This document shows, piece by piece, positions 4,509 through 16,544 of a stretch of DNA of 52,979 nt. Origin of the DNA: a virus. The DNA lies in the IMG/VR virus record IMGVR_UViG_3300031364_000003, positions 1 to 52,979 of that record. One strand, 5' to 3'. The notes beneath the pieces are model-generated. The model worked only from the letters and a program-made list of their open reading frames with translations, searched no databases and was not told where the DNA came from. The stretch's first letter is position 1; the number at the start of each line of letters is the position of its first letter. The position numbers were made by a program, and so were the translations under genes.

Positions 4509-4783
4509 TAAATAAAGGAGATATAGACTTTAAAGTTATAGATTTTAGAGATATTAAAGAAGATAAAGGTATGGTATCTGGAGATGTGGCTGTCTATTGG
4601 ACAATAGATAAGCTAAAAATTAATGGAGAGACTATCTTTTCAATAAGTGGAGAAGATGAATATTTTATCCGTATATGTTTAGATGGTAATGAAGATATGT
4701 TTTCTGATGAAGATAAGGAAATGATAGAACAGGAGATGCTATATTTTATACAGCATACAGAATTTAGATACAAGGAGGAATGA
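4505..4783 (+). CDS. Hypothetical protein, paralogue of 4272-4508
   Basis: A 92-residue acidic protein, tandem duplicate of the preceding gene with an added N-terminal strand and a longer loop. It starts inside the previous stop codon. Its last codons carry the AGGAGG ribosome-binding site for the next gene. Function unknown. Confidence 0.72.
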   Translation: MINKGDIDFKVIDFRDIKEDKGMVSGDVAVYWTIDKLKINGETIFSISGEDEYFIRICLDGNEDMFSDEDKEMIEQEMLYFIQHTEFRYKEE

Positions 4784-4785
4784 AT

Positions 4786-5535
4786 ATGAAACTATATAGT
4801 CTATTGGCTATAGCGACAGAGAAAAAAAAGGACTTTGCTAGTATGTTAGCAGAGATACAAAATCTTTTCATATCTAAGAAACATAAATTTGAGGGGAAAG
4901 ATAAAATATATACACCTTATGATCCAGAGAGCTTGGACATAGCTGAAAACGAAGTGGTTAGAGTTGTAACCACGGTGAAAAATAAGCTAGAGTACTTCGA
5001 ACAATTTGCTATAGATGCTATAGATTTAGCTATTACTATAGAAGAGGGGAATGCAGGTGCAACTGCTGTTTTGTATGTAGACGGTATAAGTTTTGGACTA
5101 TATAGTCCTACGAGTTTGTTGCAGCTAGAGAAATATATAAATAAGCTTATAGCGCTTTATGAGGATATCCCTACTCTAGACAACAGTAAAAAATGGTATC
5201 CTGATGAGGCTACAGGGGAGGGATACCATAAAACTGACCCACTTACTCAATACAGAAGTGTTAAAGTTGATAAGGCATTTGTATCAGTCCCAGAATCTAA
5301 TAAATTCCAAGCTCAAGCAGAACGTATAAAGGTATCTGAGCAGGTTGGTACATATGAAACAGTGTTCAGGTCTGGGGCTATAACATCTAGCTCTAAAGCC
5401 AGAATGTTGTCTAGATTGAATAAAGTTAGAGATGGCGTTATAGAAGCTAGATGTAAAGCTAATGATATACAGGTTAATGAAACTAATATAGCTAAGCTTA
5501 TATTTGATTATGTCCACGGCAGAGACTTGACATAA
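4786..5535 (+). CDS. DUF7873-like conserved phage protein
   Basis: A 249-residue protein. N-terminal MKLYSLLAIATEKKK, VVTTVKNKLEYFEQFAIDAIDLAITIEEGN, VDGISFGLYSPTSLLQLEKYI and IPTLDNSKKWYPDE follow the pattern of a widespread uncharacterised phage/actinobacterial family that I know as DUF7873. I choose the ATG at 4786 because GGAGG is then 7 bases away; the ATG at 4780 overlaps it. Last gene of the 4087 operon. The function is not established; family assignment is from memory. Confidence 0.75.
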   Translation: MKLYSLLAIATEKKKDFASMLAEIQNLFISKKHKFEGKDKIYTPYDPESLDIAENEVVRVVTTVKNKLEYFEQFAIDAIDLAITIEEGNAGATAVLYVDGISFGLYSPTSLLQLEKYINKLIALYEDIPTLDNSKKWYPDEATGEGYHKTDPLTQYRSVKVDKAFVSVPESNKFQAQAERIKVSEQVGTYETVFRSGAITSSSKARMLSRLNKVRDGVIEARCKANDIQVNETNIAKLIFDYVHGRDLT

Positions 5536-5640
5536 GAGTGTATTTATGATATATTTTTTTTGAGTAGGCTTAGGTTAAGATTCAAATTTAGATTTAGATT
5601 TAGATTTTACTCACTAGGCTGAAAAAAAGAACTCAGTTAC
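5536..5640 (+). other. Intergenic leader with orphan initiation context
   Basis: Begins with GAGTGTATTTATG, the recurrent initiation context, but the frame stops after five codons (MIYFF), suggesting a lost gene. It then has a (TTTAGA)n-like run near 5587-5606. TTAGATTTT at 5600-5608 could pair with AAATTCTAA at 5768-5776, beyond the permuted tRNA. Confidence 0.5.
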
Positions 5641-5752
5641 GTATAAGATGGGTACATAATTAGAAACACCGGTTCAAATCCGGTTCCGGGGGCCATCTCC
5701 GGATAGTTCAGCTGAAAGAACGCTAATCGTCAGACTGATACCCTAACTATAC
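5641..5752 (+). tRNA. Circularly permuted tRNA-like locus (3' half before 5' half)
   Basis: The 3' half comes first: ATTAG (5659-5663), variable AAAC, T arm ACCGG/CCGGT with loop TTCAAAT, acceptor TCCGGGG, G, CCA (5693-5695). One base later the 5' half follows: acceptor CTCCGGA (5697-5703), TA, D stem GTTC/GAAC, G26, CTAAT (5723-5727). CTCCGGA pairs with TCCGGGG (7 bp, one G-T) and CTAAT with ATTAG (5 bp). Outside the halves, leader GTATA and GGGTA (5641-5654) pair with trailer TACCC and TATAC (5739-5752). The anticodon cannot be fixed: the loop must come from CGTCAGACTGA (5728-5738) and CATA (5655-5658). Whether it is processed or is a relic is unknown. Confidence 0.65.
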
Positions 5753-5777: not shown

Positions 5778-5850
5778 AAGATTGTAGCTCAGTTGATAGA
5801 GCGTAACCCTATTAAGGTTAGTGTCCCAGGTTTAAATCCTGGCAATCTAT
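5778..5850 (+). tRNA. tRNA-Asn-like (anticodon ATT)
   Basis: AAGATTG/CAATCTA acceptor with an A1-A72 mismatch; D stem GCTC/GAGC; anticodon stem TAACC/GGTTA perfect with loop CTATTAA; T stem CCAGG/CCTGG with loop TTTAAAT; discriminator T. ATT would read AAU (Asn). A34 is very unusual for Asn, which normally uses GTT. No encoded CCA. Confidence 0.82.
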
Positions 5851-5861
5851 AAAATCAGTGG

Positions 5862-5894
5862 TGAAGTCCCAAGGCTAGGGGGCTTCATCTTTTT
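5862..5894 (+). terminator. Intrinsic terminator after tRNA-Asn
   Basis: TGAAGTCCC pairs with GGGGCTTCA (one G-T) around a short loop, followed by TCTTTTT. It closes the 5641-5850 tRNA unit. Confidence 0.8.
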
Positions 5895-9928: not shown

Positions 9929-10819
9929 ATGAAACCAAGTATCTATTTTCTTGATGAACCTGTCGGTTCTGTAAAATCCGAATTTCTAAAACTATGTACA
10001 GAAGTTCCAACACCTAAGAATGCATCAGTTATATATACACACAGAACACAAATTCCAGAAGGCTGTGAGCCTAAGCTGGTTATATGTCCATGTACATCTA
10101 CTAAACATCTAAGCTACAATGGTCCTGTAATCTATCTAAATGACAAAGCCTATCTAAAAGAGCATGTACATTCTACTGCTGAATTTACTATTTGTGCAAT
10201 GCTAAGTATCTTAAGAGTAAATGAAGACGAACTCTATCACACACGTGTAGGGCTTATTGGTGGTGCTGGAAGAGTAGGGCAACAAGTATGTGAAAAGCTT
10301 TATGGGCTGACTAAAGTTGTACCTATGATCTATGATCTCAACACAGTACCAGAATCGCTAAAGGGAAAGTGTGTTCAAACTAATTGGCGGTCTGAACTTT
10401 ACGAAGAATGTGACCTTATAAGCATTCATTTATCTGAATCAGAACTAACAAAAAACTTCATAAATCTATTTGACTTTAACCTTATGAAAAAACATGGGGT
10501 TAAATATCTAATCAACACATCAAGAAGCTCAGTTATAGAACCTAAAGCTCTTTTAGATTCTATAGCAGACTTTAACCATGTGTTTCTTGATGTTACGGAA
10601 GATTATCCAGAAGATATTGTAGATAGTCTTAAGCTAATACAGGAGATAACACAAGGAACTAGAGTTCTAATTACACCTCATGCTGCTGGATCTGCTAAGC
10701 CATCTAGGTTGGCTACAGACACTTATGTCCTGAATAAATTTAAGGATTGGTTTGATAAAGAGAGTTTTAAAGATAGCTTGGACAAATATCAATTACCTAG
10801 AGATTGGATGTGGATATGA
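9929..10819 (+). CDS. D-2-hydroxyacid dehydrogenase family protein
   Basis: A 296-residue NAD-dependent dehydrogenase-like protein. A Rossmann signature VGLIGGAGRVGQQVCEKL lies at about residues 105-122. The family catalytic triad is recognisable: Arg in INTSRSSVIEP (near 193), Glu in DVTEDYPED (near 217) and His in ITPHAAGSAKPSR (near 254). In this family it would interconvert a 2-keto and a 2-hydroxy acid. In the context of the NeuB/NeuC/NeuA-like genes downstream it may act on a sugar acid or a keto precursor, but that is inference. First gene of the accessory island. RBS AAAGGAG is 9 bases upstream. Confidence 0.82.
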   Translation: MKPSIYFLDEPVGSVKSEFLKLCTEVPTPKNASVIYTHRTQIPEGCEPKLVICPCTSTKHLSYNGPVIYLNDKAYLKEHVHSTAEFTICAMLSILRVNEDELYHTRVGLIGGAGRVGQQVCEKLYGLTKVVPMIYDLNTVPESLKGKCVQTNWRSELYEECDLISIHLSESELTKNFINLFDFNLMKKHGVKYLINTSRSSVIEPKALLDSIADFNHVFLDVTEDYPEDIVDSLKLIQEITQGTRVLITPHAAGSAKPSRLATDTYVLNKFKDWFDKESFKDSLDKYQLPRDWMWI

Positions 10820-11037
10820 TGCTAGATAGATGGGCTAAACCTGTAGAAGATGTACCTCCTCAAAATTCTAAATATATGAAACTTAAGATTTTTAGACTTG
10901 ATGAATATCCACAGCCTGATAATGCTGTAAATGAGTTTATTATAGACCTACAGAAACGGGGTATTCCCAACCAAATGACTACTCTAGAGACTGTAATCTA
11001 TGTACTCTATGAATGTTCAGGCGGTGATTCAAATTGA
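10816..11037 (+). CDS. Hypothetical small protein of the sugar island
   Basis: A 73-residue protein from the ATG at 10816, which overlaps the stop of the dehydrogenase (ATGATG). It contains YMKLKIFRLDEYPQPDNAVNEFI, then helices QKRGIPNQMTTLETVIYVLYEC. No family recognised. Its stop overlaps the TTG start of the NeuB-like gene. Tight coupling on both sides suggests it belongs to the same pathway, perhaps as an accessory subunit. Confidence 0.6.
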   Translation: MMLDRWAKPVEDVPPQNSKYMKLKIFRLDEYPQPDNAVNEFIIDLQKRGIPNQMTTLETVIYVLYECSGGDSN

Positions 11038-11786
11038 CAAAGATAATTCTAGATGCCTGCAACAACCATCTAGGTAACCATGACATACTAGTTGCTATGA
11101 TTAAAGAGGCTAAAAGGCTTAAGGCCGACTATATTAAGTTCCAGTTATTTAACCATGAGAGACTAAGTAGTCTATACCCTAACTATTCTGAGTATAAGAA
11201 AGAACTTGAGAAATGCCAGATAGATAGATCAAAACTAGGCTGTATATTTAATACATGCCAGAGTGTAGGTATAACGCCTATGTTTACTATATTCAGTAGT
11301 GATAGGGTAACTTTTTTGGAGAAATATGCTAAGGATAATGGGATAAAGCAGTATGCAGTAAAGATAGCTTCTAGCGATATGAGTAACTATGTACTTGTTC
11401 AAGAGGTGCTTGATACTTTTGATACTGAACGCTTTATCTCTTGCGGGATGCATACTAAACAGGAAATAGCTGCTGTGAGAAAGCACTATAGCAACCTTGG
11501 CATAAACTGGTTATACTGTGTATCTATGTATCCAACACCTAAAGAGTATATAGACTTAAATGAGATGGTTCTGTTTGATGGGTTCTCAGATCATACGAAT
11601 ACTACAGATATGGCTCTAAAAGCTTTATCGCTTGGTATCCAATTTCTTGAGATGCATTTTACACTTGGTAGATCGCTGCCATGTAAGGACTCTATAGTAT
11701 CTAAAGTGCCTAGTGAGATAGAAAAAATTGTACATTATAGAGACTATCTAGCTTCTATAGATAATTATAAACACAGATTCTTATGA
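11034..11786 (+). CDS. neuB: NeuB/SpsE-like nonulosonic acid synthase, no SAF domain
   Basis: A 250-residue TIM-barrel protein. It carries the sialic acid synthase signatures in order: DACNNHLGN (4-12 region), ADYIKFQLF, FTIFSSDR, KIASSDMSNYVLVQEV, SCGMHTKQEI, CVSMYPTPKEYIDLN, GFSDHT and LEMHFTL..PCKDSIVS. These correspond to the barrel that condenses phosphoenolpyruvate with ManNAc or a related hexosamine to give a nonulosonic acid. Usual NeuB proteins have about 340-350 residues with a C-terminal antifreeze-like SAF domain; this one ends at the barrel. Start is TTG at 11034, overlapping the previous stop. Confidence 0.85.
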   Translation: MTKIILDACNNHLGNHDILVAMIKEAKRLKADYIKFQLFNHERLSSLYPNYSEYKKELEKCQIDRSKLGCIFNTCQSVGITPMFTIFSSDRVTFLEKYAKDNGIKQYAVKIASSDMSNYVLVQEVLDTFDTERFISCGMHTKQEIAAVRKHYSNLGINWLYCVSMYPTPKEYIDLNEMVLFDGFSDHTNTTDMALKALSLGIQFLEMHFTLGRSLPCKDSIVSKVPSEIEKIVHYRDYLASIDNYKHRFL

Positions 11787-11799
11787 AAGGATGATAAAA

Positions 11800-12927
11800 A
11801 TGAGTAACGAAGGGAGAGCGACTGGCTTCCCCAAGACACAGTCGCTGAAAAATATAAAGAAAAATAATAAAGTTTGCATAATTGGTTTTGCTCCCAGTTG
11901 GAACCTGGCCCCATTTAAAGACATAGAGGGAGTCGATTTCTGGGGGATAAATGAATTATACATTTATCTAAACCAAATCCAGGTTCCAATTAATAAATTT
12001 TCTGCCTGGTTCGAAATCCATGATATCAAAAATTCGCCAAGTAAGCAAGCCCCTAGACACCAAAATTTTCTAAAAACTTTAGAAATTCCATTAATAACAC
12101 AGCAGTATTGGCCTGAATATCCTACTTCTATAGAATATCCAAGGAAAGAAATAAAAAAGATGACAAATAGAAATTTTATTCTTGATGAAAACCATTCTGG
12201 CTTTTCTGACTATTCAAATCAAATTTCGTGGATGATTGCTCTGGCAATATATCTAAAATATAAAGAAATAATGGTATATGGTGTAGATATGGCCCAGACT
12301 TCTGAATATGCTTTCCAGAGAGCTTCATGTCAATTTTTCATAGGTCTTGCTGCTGGTAAAGGTATAAAGCTTAAGATACCTAAATCATGTGAGCTTTTAA
12401 AGGCTGGATGTGACTATGGATTCCAGTCGGATAATTCAGGTAGATTTGATGCTAAGAAGCGTATAGAAGGCCATAACCAGGCACTACAGCAACTTAGGAT
12501 AAAGCAGGCTGAAATAAAATATTATCAGCATAGATTAGATGAAGAGCTTATCAAAAAATTAGCAGTTCTGGATGCTCAGATTGATGAAGCTGAAAATGAA
12601 ATAAGAAGAATAGAAGCTGGGAATCTTGCTAACAATAGTGTCCTGGACTTCTTAAAATCCATGCCTACAAATCCACAAGAAGCATATGGGAAAAGGGATT
12701 CTATAGTTAAGCAGACTCAAACATTATTTGACACTAATGTCAATAATATTAAGGCTATAAAATCTAGAGTCATAGAGCTTAAGAAGAAAAAAGATAATGT
12801 CCTTAAGGATACAGCTATAAATAAGACACTCCTGGACGACGAGTATGACATAAACAAAGGTGGGGCACATGAACTAAAAGGCCACATCAAGGCTCATGAA
12901 CATAGTCTAAATAACAATCTGGTGTAG
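11800..12927 (+). CDS. GT42/DUF115-like putative glycosyl(sialyl)transferase
   Basis: A 375-residue protein. The N-terminal 200 residues show KVCIIGFAPSWNLAPFKDI.., VDFWGINELY, FEIHD, and SWMIALAIYLKYKEIMVYGVDMAQTSEYAF. This order resembles the DUF115/MptE-like and GT42 (Cst-II-type sialyltransferase) Rossmann folds. The C-terminal 170 residues are a long coiled coil (LRIKQAEIKYYQHRLDEELIKKL..). Similar proteins occur near terminases in other phages without known function. Lying directly after NeuB, a role as acceptor of CMP-nonulosonate is plausible but inferred. Start ATG 11800 suits AAAGG at 11786-11790. Confidence 0.6.
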   Translation: MSNEGRATGFPKTQSLKNIKKNNKVCIIGFAPSWNLAPFKDIEGVDFWGINELYIYLNQIQVPINKFSAWFEIHDIKNSPSKQAPRHQNFLKTLEIPLITQQYWPEYPTSIEYPRKEIKKMTNRNFILDENHSGFSDYSNQISWMIALAIYLKYKEIMVYGVDMAQTSEYAFQRASCQFFIGLAAGKGIKLKIPKSCELLKAGCDYGFQSDNSGRFDAKKRIEGHNQALQQLRIKQAEIKYYQHRLDEELIKKLAVLDAQIDEAENEIRRIEAGNLANNSVLDFLKSMPTNPQEAYGKRDSIVKQTQTLFDTNVNNIKAIKSRVIELKKKKDNVLKDTAINKTLLDDEYDINKGGAHELKGHIKAHEHSLNNNLV

Positions 12928-12938
12928 GGGGTGTATTT

Positions 12939-13154
12939 ATGATTGTTTACAAGATAGCTGATAAGAATGGTAATTTTATAAAAACTTTCAGCAAAAGGAA
13001 AATATGGACAAAGCTAAATTGGCTAAAAACTGCTATAAACTATCGCCGGAAATATTCAGGTAATCCAGAACTTGAAGATGCTACAGTCATTATATATGAA
13101 CTAAAAGAGATAGCTAGAAAGTCAGTTAAAGATTATATGAAGGAGGGGTTCTAA
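12939..13154 (+). CDS. Hypothetical small basic protein
   Basis: A 71-residue protein (IVYKIADKNGNFIKTFSKRKIWTKLNW..) with an alpha/beta pattern and many Lys residues; no family assigned. It is preceded by the recurrent AGGGGGTGTATTTATG context. It ends with AAGGAGGGG, which serves as RBS for the NeuC-like gene starting right after its stop codon. Confidence 0.65.
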   Translation: MIVYKIADKNGNFIKTFSKRKIWTKLNWLKTAINYRRKYSGNPELEDATVIIYELKEIARKSVKDYMKEGF

Positions 13155-14216
13155 ATGGACGAGAAAGCTCCTACAATCGATATCCTGGAAGAATTTGATG
13201 ATGAAGAATTCCAAAAAAAAAGAATACTTATATGGGTCGGAGGAAGGGCAAACTATGGCAGGCTAAAGATGCTAATAGATACGCTTTCTCAGGTACATAC
13301 TGTAGAGCTTATTATAGGTGATTATGAGGTTCCGAATTACTATGTCATAGCTGGCAGAGTACCTAATTTGATGTATTCTGATAGCTTCTCTAATTCTGCA
13401 AGGTCTGTATCGCTTGTTATACAAGGTGTAACCACAATCTTAGAATCTAGAGGCTCTTATGACTTAGCTATTGTACATGCTGATAGATTCGAGAACCTTG
13501 GTTTTGCAATAGCTTGTAGTTACTGTGGTATACCGCTTCTTCATACAGAAGGTGGTGAAGAATCTGGGCAGATAGATAACAAGGTTAGAAATGCTATAAC
13601 TTCTCTAGCTGATTATCACTGTGCAGCTACAGAGTTGGCATACAAGAAACTGATATGCAGAGGCTGTAATGCTATATTTGCAGGTAGCCCAGCTATAGAC
13701 TATATAAGGGAAATAGGCTATAGAACATGTAAAAGAGACTATGTACTTGCTGTATTTAATCCATCTGATACAGATGATTATACAGAATTCATAGCTGCTA
13801 TATCAAATATATCTGAGGTTTCACCTGTATTCTGGATACCTCCTGCTAATGACCCAGGTTGGAGAGAGATTGCTAAAGATTTATATAGACTTAATAATAT
13901 ATTTCTTATGGATAAGCTAACTCCTTATGAATATTACGATCTGTTATCCAGAGCTAGAGTTCTTGTGGGCAATACAAGCTCAGGCATTAAGGAAGGCTGT
14001 TATCTTGGTATTCCATATGTCTTAGTAGGCGATAGACAGATAGGGCGTGAAGTTGGGCCTAATGTTACCAAGGTTCCATGTAAGCATAGAGATATATTTA
14101 ATGCTGTAGAAGATATACAGAATGGCTGTAGATATGAGTACAATGGGATGTTTGGCGATGGGCACTCATGTGAAAAGATTCTTAAGTATATAGACAGCGA
14201 GGTGTTTGGGGGATGA
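13155..14216 (+). CDS. neuC: NeuC-like UDP-N-acetylglucosamine 2-epimerase (hydrolysing type)
   Basis: A 353-residue GT-B-fold epimerase. Recognisable segments: ILIWVGGRANYGRLKMLIDTL (about 22-42), DLAIVHADRFENLGFAIACSYCGIPLLHTEGGEESGQIDNKVRNAI (about 103-150), GSPAIDYI, then SRARVLVGNTSSGIKEGCYLGIPYVLVGDRQIGREVG (about 267-305). These follow the WecB/NeuC order; HTEGGEESG matches the H-x-E-G-G-E signature. NeuC converts UDP-GlcNAc to ManNAc plus UDP, supplying NeuB. It starts one base after the previous stop with AAGGAGG upstream. Confidence 0.85.
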   Translation: MDEKAPTIDILEEFDDEEFQKKRILIWVGGRANYGRLKMLIDTLSQVHTVELIIGDYEVPNYYVIAGRVPNLMYSDSFSNSARSVSLVIQGVTTILESRGSYDLAIVHADRFENLGFAIACSYCGIPLLHTEGGEESGQIDNKVRNAITSLADYHCAATELAYKKLICRGCNAIFAGSPAIDYIREIGYRTCKRDYVLAVFNPSDTDDYTEFIAAISNISEVSPVFWIPPANDPGWREIAKDLYRLNNIFLMDKLTPYEYYDLLSRARVLVGNTSSGIKEGCYLGIPYVLVGDRQIGREVGPNVTKVPCKHRDIFNAVEDIQNGCRYEYNGMFGDGHSCEKILKYIDSEVFGG

Positions 14217-15403
14217 AAGAATTTTATAAATGTAAAATATGTAAAGCAATTATTTCAATGGAATTTGATTATTATGAAGAGTGTGATTTATGTGGAAAAA
14301 TAATATGTGAAAAATGCTTTGTCTATGGAAATGGTACTCAATATTGTCTTAAATGTTATGAAAAAAATATTAAAACTAAAAATGAAATAGTAAAAATAAA
14401 TAATAATTTACCTGCTAAATTAGAAGATTTGTCAAAATTTATATTGGTAGGTAAAGAAAAATTAGTTAGTGTTAAGGCTGAAATAAGAGCAATGAAACAC
14501 TTAAAAACAGCCAAAGAAGTTTACAAGCAAAAAGAAATTGAAGCGAAGGGTCTCGGAGGTGCGTTGCTATTGGCTAAAGTTCGCATTGGTGAGTTGTTTG
14601 ATGATATTCCTAAAGGAAGTGGTGGCGACAGAAAAAATGATATTATCAAAATCGACAGCGCTGTCGATTTTGATAATAAGCAAACAAAGCAAGAAAAAGT
14701 TAAAGACCTAGGATTTAGCCAAAAGGAATCAGAGAGATTTCAGCAGCTAGCAGCCAATAAAGATATAGTCGAGGAAGTAATTGAAAACAGCGAAGACATA
14801 CCAACTCAGACAGAATGCCTTAAGAAAATACAAGAAAAGAAAAAAGAACAAAGGAACAAAGAAAGACAGGAAACAATCAAGAATGTAAACCCCATCGAAG
14901 GAAAGTACAAAGTAATATATGCTGACCCTCCATGGAGTTATAACGATAAGCATGAATATAACGGAACTACAGGAGCAGAAACACATTACAATACAATGCA
15001 ATTAGATGATATATGCAATATGCCAATTAAAGATAAGACAGAAGATAATGCAGTTTTATTTCTATGGGGTGTTGTACCCCAGTTAGAGGAAGCTTTACAA
15101 GTGATAAAAGCTTGGGGATTTAAATATAAGACTCATTTTGTGTGGGATAAAGTTAAGCATAATATGGGGCATTATTCAAGTGTAAGACATGAATTATTGT
15201 TTGTTGCAACTAAAGGGAACTGCACACCTGAGAATATAAAATTGTTTGATAGTGTCCAGGTCATAGAGAAAAGTTCTAAACATAGTGAAAAACCTGAACA
15301 ATTCAGAGAAATAATTGATACATTGTACCCATCTGGGAACAGAATTGAATTATTTTCTAGAAAAAAAGTAAAAAATTGGGAAAGCTGGGGTGATGAAGTA
15401 TGA
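14213..15403 (+). CDS. MT-A70 family DNA adenine N6-methyltransferase with zinc-ribbon N-terminus
   Basis: A 396-residue protein. Residues 1-50 contain paired CxxC motifs (CKIC, CDLC, CEKC, CLKC), a double zinc knuckle. Residues 75-210 are helical with GLGGALLLAKVRIGELF..GSGGDRKND, typical of phage MT-A70 enzymes. The methyltransferase domain starts near 225 with YKVIYADPPWSYND (catalytic DPPW at 238-241), VLFLWGV and a final RIELFSRK. It should methylate adenine in DNA, probably to evade host restriction. Base and codon use look more AT-rich than its neighbours by eye. A perfect 38-bp palindrome lies inside (14641-14678). Confidence 0.88.
   Translation: MKEFYKCKICKAIISMEFDYYEECDLCGKIICEKCFVYGNGTQYCLKCYEKNIKTKNEIVKINNNLPAKLEDLSKFILVGKEKLVSVKAEIRAMKHLKTAKEVYKQKEIEAKGLGGALLLAKVRIGELFDDIPKGSGGDRKNDIIKIDSAVDFDNKQTKQEKVKDLGFSQKESERFQQLAANKDIVEEVIENSEDIPTQTECLKKIQEKKKEQRNKERQETIKNVNPIEGKYKVIYADPPWSYNDKHEYNGTTGAETHYNTMQLDDICNMPIKDKTEDNAVLFLWGVVPQLEEALQVIKAWGFKYKTHFVWDKVKHNMGHYSSVRHELLFVATKGNCTPENIKLFDSVQVIEKSSKHSEKPEQFREIIDTLYPSGNRIELFSRKKVKNWESWGDEV
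14641..14678. repeat. Perfect 38-bp palindrome inside the methyltransferase gene
   Basis: Two 19-base arms (TATTATCAAAATCGACAGC and its exact complement) meet at GC|GC with no loop. It is translated as a stretch around DIIKIDSAVDFDN. Possible protein-binding site or mRNA cruciform/hairpin. Confidence 0.97.
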
Positions 15404-15858
15404 CTCCATATTATAAAGAAAAATTAAAAGAAGGTTTAGCTTACCAAGAATTTATAGAAAAAAAATCAGAAGAAAGAGGAATGTATTTGCATAATTATAC
15501 ATCAAGGATTAATCAATATGAAATAGGTGAAAATCCAGAAGGTATAGAGATTAAATTTGATGGGCTTTATTCTAAAACAGGTAATTTATTTATTGAGACT
15601 GCTGAGAAGACCAATCCTCAAAACAAGAGATATATGAAATCAGGTATTTTTAGAGGTGATAATTCAACATCATTACTTATTGGCAATTACGATATAGCCT
15701 ATGTTTTTGCAACTACTACATTAAGACAATTAGCTAAAAGTTCAAGAATTATCGAATCTAAAACAAAAACTAGCTTGGGTTTCTTGATTAAAAAAGATGA
15801 TATCTCAAAATATTGTACTGGAACTTGGAATTTTAGTATAAAGGAGATGATAGCATGA
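15400..15858 (+). CDS. PD-(D/E)XK-like putative nuclease or restriction partner
   Basis: A 152-residue protein. GIEIKFDGLYSKTGNLFIETAEK (about 49-71) resembles a PD-(D/E)XK core: D in KFDG, then E-x-A-E-K on the next strand. DIAYVFATTTLRQLAK continues with the expected strand-helix. The start overlaps the methyltransferase stop (ATGA), so they form a pair. This is a restriction-modification-like arrangement, although phage homologues could equally aid modification specificity. Its AT-rich composition matches the methyltransferase rather than the sugar genes. Confidence 0.55.
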   Translation: MTPYYKEKLKEGLAYQEFIEKKSEERGMYLHNYTSRINQYEIGENPEGIEIKFDGLYSKTGNLFIETAEKTNPQNKRYMKSGIFRGDNSTSLLIGNYDIAYVFATTTLRQLAKSSRIIESKTKTSLGFLIKKDDISKYCTGTWNFSIKEMIA

Positions 15859-16544
15859 TTTACGCAGTTATACCGTTTCGACAAGGGTCTAAGCGGCTAA
15901 AGAACAAGAGTATGCTAAATATATCTGGAATCCCTTTGGTTAGGCACACGATACAACAGGCCCTTTTAGCTACAGACAATATCATAGTAACTACAGATTA
16001 CCCTATCCCAGAGCTTTCTAAAAAAATACCTGAACTAGATAACCCAAATATAATGTGCCACAAGAGAAACCCTGTTCCAGATAACCAAACAGTAAATGAA
16101 TATATAACCCAATTAATAGCTGCATATGACATAAAGGAGGACGACTCCATATGTTTATTACAGCCTACATGCCCATGCAGAGAGCCTATGGATATAAGGA
16201 ATGCAATTACTATGTATTCTACATTGAGAGGAAGCTGTCTTATATCTGTGTATAAGATAGGTTCTGCTGGCAAACTATATAAGTCTAGAGATGGGAAGAA
16301 AGGCTCTTCATACACAGGTCTTACGGCAACATTTCAGCATGAGAAACCTTTGTACATAAGGAACTCAAGCATATATATATTTAAGGTTAGGCTGCTACTT
16401 ACCAGGAATACTATATTTGCTGAGGAAACTTTGTTATATGAAATGCCACTTCACAGGAGTATAGATATTGATACTAAAGGTGAGTTTGACTTAGCTAAAC
16501 TTATTATCGAAGGGGGGTTGTCTGGATGGTCGCCACATTTATAG
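15855..16544 (+). CDS. neuA: NeuA-like CMP-nonulosonic acid cytidylyltransferase
   Basis: A 229-residue nucleotidyltransferase. The N-terminal AVIPFRQGSKRLKNKSMLNI matches the CTP-binding R-x-G-SKR-x-x-x-K signature of CMP-sialate synthases; ICLLQPTCPCREPMDIRNAI carries the L-QPTSP-like motif; IYIFK and SIDIDTKGEFDLAKLII match the C-terminal metal-binding D-x-D region. It would activate a nonulosonic acid with CTP for transfer. It overlaps the nuclease-like gene by 4 bases, and its partner genes neuB and neuC lie upstream across the methyltransferase insertion. Confidence 0.87.
   Translation: MIYAVIPFRQGSKRLKNKSMLNISGIPLVRHTIQQALLATDNIIVTTDYPIPELSKKIPELDNPNIMCHKRNPVPDNQTVNEYITQLIAAYDIKEDDSICLLQPTCPCREPMDIRNAITMYSTLRGSCLISVYKIGSAGKLYKSRDGKKGSSYTGLTATFQHEKPLYIRNSSIYIFKVRLLLTRNTIFAEETLLYEMPLHRSIDIDTKGEFDLAKLIIEGGLSGWSPHL

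Follow-up and report, generated by a model that had tools for sequence, protein, structure and literature searches.

A permuted tRNA-like unit lies directly downstream of a DUF7873 gene

We analysed the viral record IMGVR_UViG_3300031364_000003 over positions 1-52,979 (52,979 b, hereafter the window), with a focus on an element at positions 5641-5752 in which the two halves of a transfer RNA (tRNA) appear in permuted order, and on the gene directly upstream of it, which encodes a DUF7873 protein. On direct reading, positions 5659-5727 hold a complete 3' tRNA half and then a complete 5' half, with only GCCAU between them. The unit sits between two sets of flanking bases that pair with each other into a basal stem, and a second, tRNA-Asn-like gene and a terminator-like hairpin follow (Table 1). 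In a nearest-neighbour fold of the window RNA, the T, acceptor and flank helices have pair probabilities of 0.8-1.0.

Table 1. Features of the permuted RNA locus in window coordinates.
Feature	Position	Strand	Remarks
DUF7873 (PF25283) protein gene, 251 amino acids, proposed RNA partner	4780..5535	+	Pfam E 4e-54; directly upstream of RNA
Promoter-like site TTGACA-17-TATATT, TG before second hexamer	5527..5555	+	Consensus 11/12; overlaps end of DUF7873 gene
Basal stem, outer 5' strand GTATA	5641..5645	+	Pairs with 5748-5752; pair probability 0.81-0.97
Basal stem, inner 5' strand GGGTA	5650..5654	+	Pairs with 5739-5743; pair probability 0.82-0.98
Anticodon-position stem, 3' strand ATTAG	5659..5663	+	5 pairs with 5723-5727; 3/5 pairs compensatory relative to L006
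AAAC stretch	5664-5667	+	Direct reading; between ATTAG and T-arm
T-arm ACCGG TTCAAAT CCGGT	5668..5684	+	Sequence; pair probability 0.87-1.0
Acceptor stem, 3' strand TCCGGGG	5685..5691	+	7/7 pairs with 5697-5703, one G-U; 2 compensatory changes relative to L006
GCCAT loop closing acceptor stem (discriminator G5692, CCA 5693-5695, T5696)	5692..5696	+	Identical in L006
Acceptor stem, 5' strand CTCCGGA	5697..5703	+	7/7 pairs with 5685-5691, one G-U; then TA
D-arm GTTC AGCTGAAA GAAC, loop without GG	5706..5721	+	Sequence; pairs kept in L006; then G5722
Anticodon-position stem, 5' strand CTAAT	5723..5727	+	5 pairs with 5659-5663; then 11-nt stretch
Basal stem, inner 3' strand TACCC	5739..5743	+	Pairs with 5650-5654; then TAAC
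Basal stem, outer 3' strand TATAC	5748..5752	+	Pairs with 5641-5645
tRNA-Asn-like gene, anticodon ATT	5778..5850	+	ARAGORN; Rfam 56.3 bits; 25 nt downstream of RNA
Intrinsic terminator-like hairpin, 11-pair stem, then TTTTT	5860..5889	+	Proposed transcript end

The full permuted pattern occurs once in the window and never after dinucleotide shuffling of the whole window (400 shuffles), while the T-arm and a 7/7 acceptor alone occurred 8 times in total across the 400 shuffles. The permuted arrangement at 5659-5727 is real and not due to chance. The initial annotation had described this permuted order with its seven-pair acceptor and five-pair anticodon-position strands, all of which are borne out by direct reading, the shuffles and a relative of the window, L006, described below. 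The flank pairs that it had read as an extended helix (GTATA/TATAC and GGGTA/TACCC) are likewise present, with probabilities of 0.8-0.98.

No canonical tRNA was called at 5659-5727 by ARAGORN or by Rfam at gathering score, and the top tRNA-model match at 5641-5752 was a 13.6-bit fragment of the T-arm. Compared with a canonical tRNA, the window RNA is without the D-loop GG and without the contiguous cloverleaf that tRNA models score. The transfer-messenger RNA (tmRNA) model RF00023 reached 7.5 bits on the RNA, through the T-arm only, against a gathering score of 47. We also considered whether the halves of a group I or group II intron might flank a tRNA, as in a natural permuted intron-exon arrangement, and rejected this candidate, as there was no Rfam match and the flanks are too short.

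The tRNA helices are kept in a syntenic relative

L006 was found through its terminase, which is 83% identical to that of the window. It carries a permuted unit between the same two genes, with helices of differing sequence (anticodon-position stem ACTCT...AGGGT; acceptor stem TTCTGGG...CCCAGAA) and a different basal stem of 12 bp, ACATAGTGTATA/TATACATTGTGT. Across the four tRNA helices, 21 of 21 pairs are kept between the window and L006, five of them through double, compensatory changes of the kind that the initial annotation had proposed looking for in related phages. When the partner strand is slid by 1-3 columns as a control, pairing in this comparison falls to 31-62%. The permuted unit is absent from terminase relatives L008-L032, in which the neighbourhood is replaced, and a tight pattern of the window type picked out L006 alone among viral contigs and had no match in the genomes scanned.

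The comparison bears on the possibility that the halves are remnants of two tandem tRNA genes that have lost their outer halves. Phage tRNA arrays do decay, and a tRNA lies 25 nt downstream of the RNA. However, decay would not preserve a 7-bp acceptor complementarity together with flank pairing, L006 has a permuted unit with compensating changes in the corresponding position, and such units recur downstream of DUF7873 in unrelated phages, as set out in the next section. In no relative seen does either half lie beside its own complete partner, the arrangement that the initial annotation had named as a refutation. Like that annotation, we find the loss of outer halves inadequate as an explanation, and we consider it highly improbable.

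Permuted units recur downstream of DUF7873 genes

Of 47 records tested, three have a DUF7873 match above the cut-off, namely the window, L006 and L209, and a permuted unit follows the gene in each of them, within 1 kb downstream in the case of the window. A tblastn search found DUF7873 in 88 phage records and in a Nonomuraea replicon. We examined 19 DUF7873 loci, comprising 18 viral loci and the one in a bacterial replicon, for units with a T-arm of at least 4/5 pairs, an acceptor of 7/7 pairs and a D-stem of at least 3 pairs. One or more permuted units lie no more than 1 kb downstream of DUF7873 in 16 of the 19 loci, with two copies in 7 of those 16. With canonical tRNAs masked, the 19,000 b downstream of DUF7873 contained 23 units, compared with 2 in the remaining 290,710 b of these sequences. 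The search for the 23 units made no use of the anticodon-position stem, yet it is paired at 5/5 positions in 13 of them, compared with 4.3% when halves are swapped between loci. A flank helix of at least 7 pairs is present in 74% of the 23 units and in 33% with swapped partners. The phages that carry both DUF7873 and the RNA have hosts as varied as Rhizobium, Vibrio, Rhodococcus, Pseudanabaena, Klebsiella, Arthrobacter and Gordonia. Rfam searches of 12 DUF7873 loci returned canonical tRNAs only.

Two further sequences recur beside the units and are candidate DUF7873 binding sites: GATTATYGCTCTA, which follows copy 1 in five loci (L430, L433, L435, L438 and L431), and AATCGACTG ... CTTAAACGTGTTGCC, which surrounds copy 2 in four (L430, L435, L437 and L438). 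Outside phages, none of 391 genomes from the class to which a rumen Ruminococcus metagenome-assembled genome (MAG) belongs contained DUF7873, and among 14 control genomes Deinobacterium chartae was the sole one with DUF7873 and likewise the sole one with a TROVE domain.

The RNA does not resemble a gene for a decoding tRNA

The initial annotation had read the locus as a tRNA gene that matures through a circular intermediate. In such a gene, the basal helix would juxtapose the halves, an endonuclease and a ligase would circularize the RNA at the anticodon, and RNase P and 3' trimming would open the circle at the CCA to release a decoding tRNA. The half order, the CCA and the extended helix fit the permuted tRNA genes of algae and archaea (reviewed in PMC3978253), which share with the window RNA their leader-trailer pairing and complementary acceptor strands; those genes differ in rebuilding a decoding anticodon loop from a bulge-helix-bulge, of which none is consistent between the window and L006.

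The anticodon region, the D-loop and the acceptor end all bear on this possibility. Taken by itself, the window RNA allows a loop with U33, the only such rejoinings being CUACAUA and GUACAUA, neither of which matches the discriminator G73; CUACAUA would give the anticodon ACA (Cys). In the syntenic L006 RNA, the halves cannot be rejoined in any way that puts U33 into the anticodon loop, and for about half of the 23 related RNAs the best-scoring rejoinings include no U33 loop. The D-loop GG is needed for the tRNA elbow contact. Among the 23 units it is missing in exactly the window and L006, so a normal elbow contact is unlikely in these two RNAs. CCA is not encoded in 10 of the 23 units, and several relatives have an extended acceptor end, a hairpin in which the CCA bases are paired (for example, L429, GCCAATGTACA...TGTATATTGG). 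A Pfam scan of 20 window proteins gave no match to an RNA ligase family. The U33, D-loop and CCA evidence, together with the known Y RNA mimics discussed below, leaves maturation through a circular intermediate unsupported, and a genuine permuted tRNA gene appears quite unlikely to us. In the literature searched we found no report on permuted tRNAs in phages; the main YrlA papers or an RNA-repair survey may contain an earlier mention.

The acceptor end could also be read as the junction of a two-piece tRNA-like molecule. RNase P would cut at T5696/C5697, leaving a CCA-ended 3' piece paired to the 5' piece as in permuted tmRNA, and aminoacylation without an anticodon would be possible. RNase P substrates need mainly an acceptor, a T-arm and RCCA, and GCCAU is identical in the window and L006. 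The layout is shared with the permuted two-piece tmRNA gene (RF04321), in which the CCA-bearing 3' piece is encoded upstream of the 5' piece and the two pair to form the acceptor, and Ruegeria phage RpAliso has such a gene. Unlike tmRNA, which has a tag reading frame and pseudoknots, the window RNA is about 112 nt long and has no mRNA-like segment. The 10 of 23 relatives without CCA, and those with the CCA bases paired within a longer hairpin, also speak against a two-piece molecule, which we regard as unlikely.

The RNA resembles YrlA-type Y RNAs and has no sign of a Ro partner

Pattern scans and a structural scanner found permuted units in at least dozens of unrelated viral contigs. In many of the units from the contig scans the acceptor is closed by a tetraloop (UUCG, GAAA, UACG or CUCG), which suits a tRNA mimic rather than a tRNA. 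Two flank motifs, GGUUAUC and GUUACUUC, are recurrent among the permuted units listed. Of 40 records that contain permuted units, the window and L006 among them, 21 have a TROVE domain scoring above the cut-off. In Mycobacterium Sparky and prophiGD43A-5, Gordonia BearBQ and Microbacterium FuzzBuster (L387, L388, L389 and L390), genes annotated 'Ro-like RNA binding protein' are immediately preceded by unannotated permuted tRNA-like Y RNAs. The statement in the initial annotation that no bacteriophage example was known therefore fails for permuted tRNA-like units. A separate splicing class defined by TAAA...GGUUAUC was dropped, because the motif adjoins annotated Ro-like genes and is the Ro-binding stem of Y RNAs.

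Ro60/Rsr is the partner of YrlA-type Y RNAs; in YrlA, the basal stem holds Rsr/Ro60 and the tRNA-like domain binds PNPase (PMC8394870). In the structure 6CU1, a bacterial Y RNA can be overlaid on tRNAs once a circular permutation is allowed for (PMC11472068), and the permuted topology is thus a known shape of tRNA mimic. YrlA has also been suggested to act as a decoy against anticodon nucleases (PMC7790460). The window RNA shares with Salmonella YrlA (PDB 6CU1) a permuted head with D, T and acceptor arms and a closed acceptor end, a basal stem made from the RNA's own 5' and 3' ends (PMC8394870, PMC11472068), a position beside the gene for the partner protein, here a proposed one, and, among its relatives, the occasional occurrence of two tandem copies. 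It differs in having no Ro-binding motif and no TROVE gene, with DUF7873 as the proposed partner gene instead, and, in both the window and L006, in a D-loop without GG and the lack of an anticodon hairpin. The Ro-linked RNAs of Sparky, BearBQ and FuzzBuster are similarly phage-encoded and have a permuted head and a flank helix, but they carry GGUUAUC, and an annotated Ro-like gene follows each of them closely.

The matching permuted head on a basal stem would also fit an ordinary YrlA-type Y RNA whose Ro-binding stem has diverged and which uses the Ro60/Rsr of the host, and Ro-linked permuted RNAs are common in phages. However, neither of the motifs of the Ro-linked loci, (CGA...)GGUUAUC and GUUACUUC, occurs in the flanks of the window or L006 RNA, and TROVE (PF05731) has no match in the 52,979-b window record or the L006 fragment, nor in 15 of 16 further DUF7873 virus records, the exception being Rhizobium phage RHph_TM21B. 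The neighbouring gene is DUF7873 instead. On this evidence an ordinary Y RNA appears quite unlikely, and assignment of the window RNA to the Ro type was rejected. Having looked for both the Ro motif and the Ro gene and found neither, we do not file the RNA as a Y RNA; our best reading keeps it apart from Y RNAs proper, as a Y-RNA-like tRNA mimic with a new candidate partner protein.

A candidate two-gene module of DUF7873 and a tRNA-mimic RNA

The observed structure, the covariation in L006 and the recurrent pairing of DUF7873 genes with permuted RNAs lead us to conclude that positions 5641-5752 probably encode a noncoding tRNA mimic about 112 nt long, which together with the gene for its likely partner, DUF7873, makes up a two-gene module. 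For a broader proposal the chances seem to us about even: that DUF7873 and its downstream mimic RNA form a previously undescribed, Ro-independent ribonucleoprotein, widespread in phages and at least one bacterial replicon, with hosts among Vibrio, Rhizobium, Klebsiella, Gordonia, Arthrobacter, Rhodococcus and cyanobacteria, and acting either as a phage-borne equivalent of Ro60-Y RNA or as a tRNA decoy directed at host defences that cleave tRNAs. The pair is not described in Rfam, PHROGs or the literature searched, where no paper naming DUF7873 was found either; an earlier mention in the main YrlA papers or in an RNA-repair survey is possible.

In the mechanism that we propose, a single transcript would run from the promoter-like site to the terminator-like hairpin and carry both the RNA and the tRNA-Asn, and RNase P cleavage at the downstream tRNA would set the 3' end of the RNA. 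The RNA would fold into a T-arm, a D-arm and an acceptor stem closed by GCCAU, with a basal helix of its own ends in place of an anticodon loop. By analogy with Ro60/Rsr on YrlA (PMC8394870), DUF7873 would bind at the basal stem, with the tRNA-like head offered to tRNA-recognising enzymes, which in the Ro/YrlA case are PNPase and tRNA-modification enzymes. Alternatively, the head could act as a decoy for an anticodon nuclease, a role that would suit a phage. Splicing of the window RNA into a decoding tRNA would not be expected.

Several points weigh against a DUF7873-RNA module. The nearest-neighbour fold gives the anticodon-position and D stems almost zero probability, and both stems thus rest on the comparison with L006, the sole sequence near enough for alignment with the window. 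The DUF7873 loci of Lak-A1, Lak-C1 and a Microcoleus phage have no permuted unit nearby, even with a relaxed search, and some of the 19 loci are closely related to each other (Y1_11/TM16, Pam2/PA-SR01 and D472/K479), so that the set does not amount to 19 independent events. As for the protein, its binding of RNA is proposed from gene neighbourhood alone. A profile search of DUF7873 against PDB sequences gave no match of note, the structure model is of low confidence (predicted local distance difference test score 58.7), and Foldseek found no significant structural match with it. PHROGs has no PHROG for DUF7873, and PADLOC and NCBIfam gave nothing usable.

Work on Y RNAs has dealt with a single partner, Ro60, and a second, co-travelling protein family would mean that the permuted mimic form is in wider use. 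DUF7873, so far a family without an assigned function, would gain a first testable role, and the module points to a possible phage tool for steering host RNA decay, tRNA modification or tRNA-targeting defence. The locus also carries a warning for annotation, as ARAGORN and Rfam gathering scores miss these RNAs, which may then be misread as broken or permuted tRNA genes.

Transcription context and neighbouring tRNAs

From its consensus match, the promoter-like site that overlaps the last bases of the DUF7873 gene is predicted to initiate transcription upstream of the RNA; L006 has a weaker similar site (10/12) at the corresponding place. The tRNA-Asn-like gene probably shares a transcript with the permuted RNA, and a tRNA also follows the permuted RNA in L006, L428, L429, L430, L437, L438, L439, L440 and L442. 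These downstream tRNAs can be odd: that of the window has an ATT anticodon (A34), and that of L006 (5365-5439) has an 8-nt anticodon loop and could not be named by ARAGORN.

Other permuted units and window genes

In a further class of permuted units, a conserved ACAGCAA immediately precedes the unit and the 5' half is followed by an A-rich stretch. Its members are IMG/VR contigs (L091, L166, L174, L188, L195, L231, L237, L247, L261 and L269), and neither TROVE nor DUF7873 is present in these ten records. L237 holds four such units, one with a long variable region, and their plausible anticodon loops of differing identity mean that they may be true permuted tRNAs. A Ruminococcus MAG (L423) and a Clostridiales MAG (L426) contain tandem arrays of permuted units with GGUUACUUCG, apparently Y RNA arrays of rumen bacteria. 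In RpAliso (L393), the permuted tmRNA at 2785-3091 matches RF04321 with 129.5 bits and is followed by two permuted tRNA-like units, at ~3165 and ~3311.

Elsewhere in the window, the region at 9929-16544, between the terminase and portal genes, contains 2-hydroxyacid dehydrogenase-like, NeuB-like synthase, UDP-GlcNAc 2-epimerase and cytidylyltransferase genes, the latter two assigned by Pfam and the others from reading their translations. These genes suggest that the phage makes a sugar of the sialic- or legionaminic-acid type.
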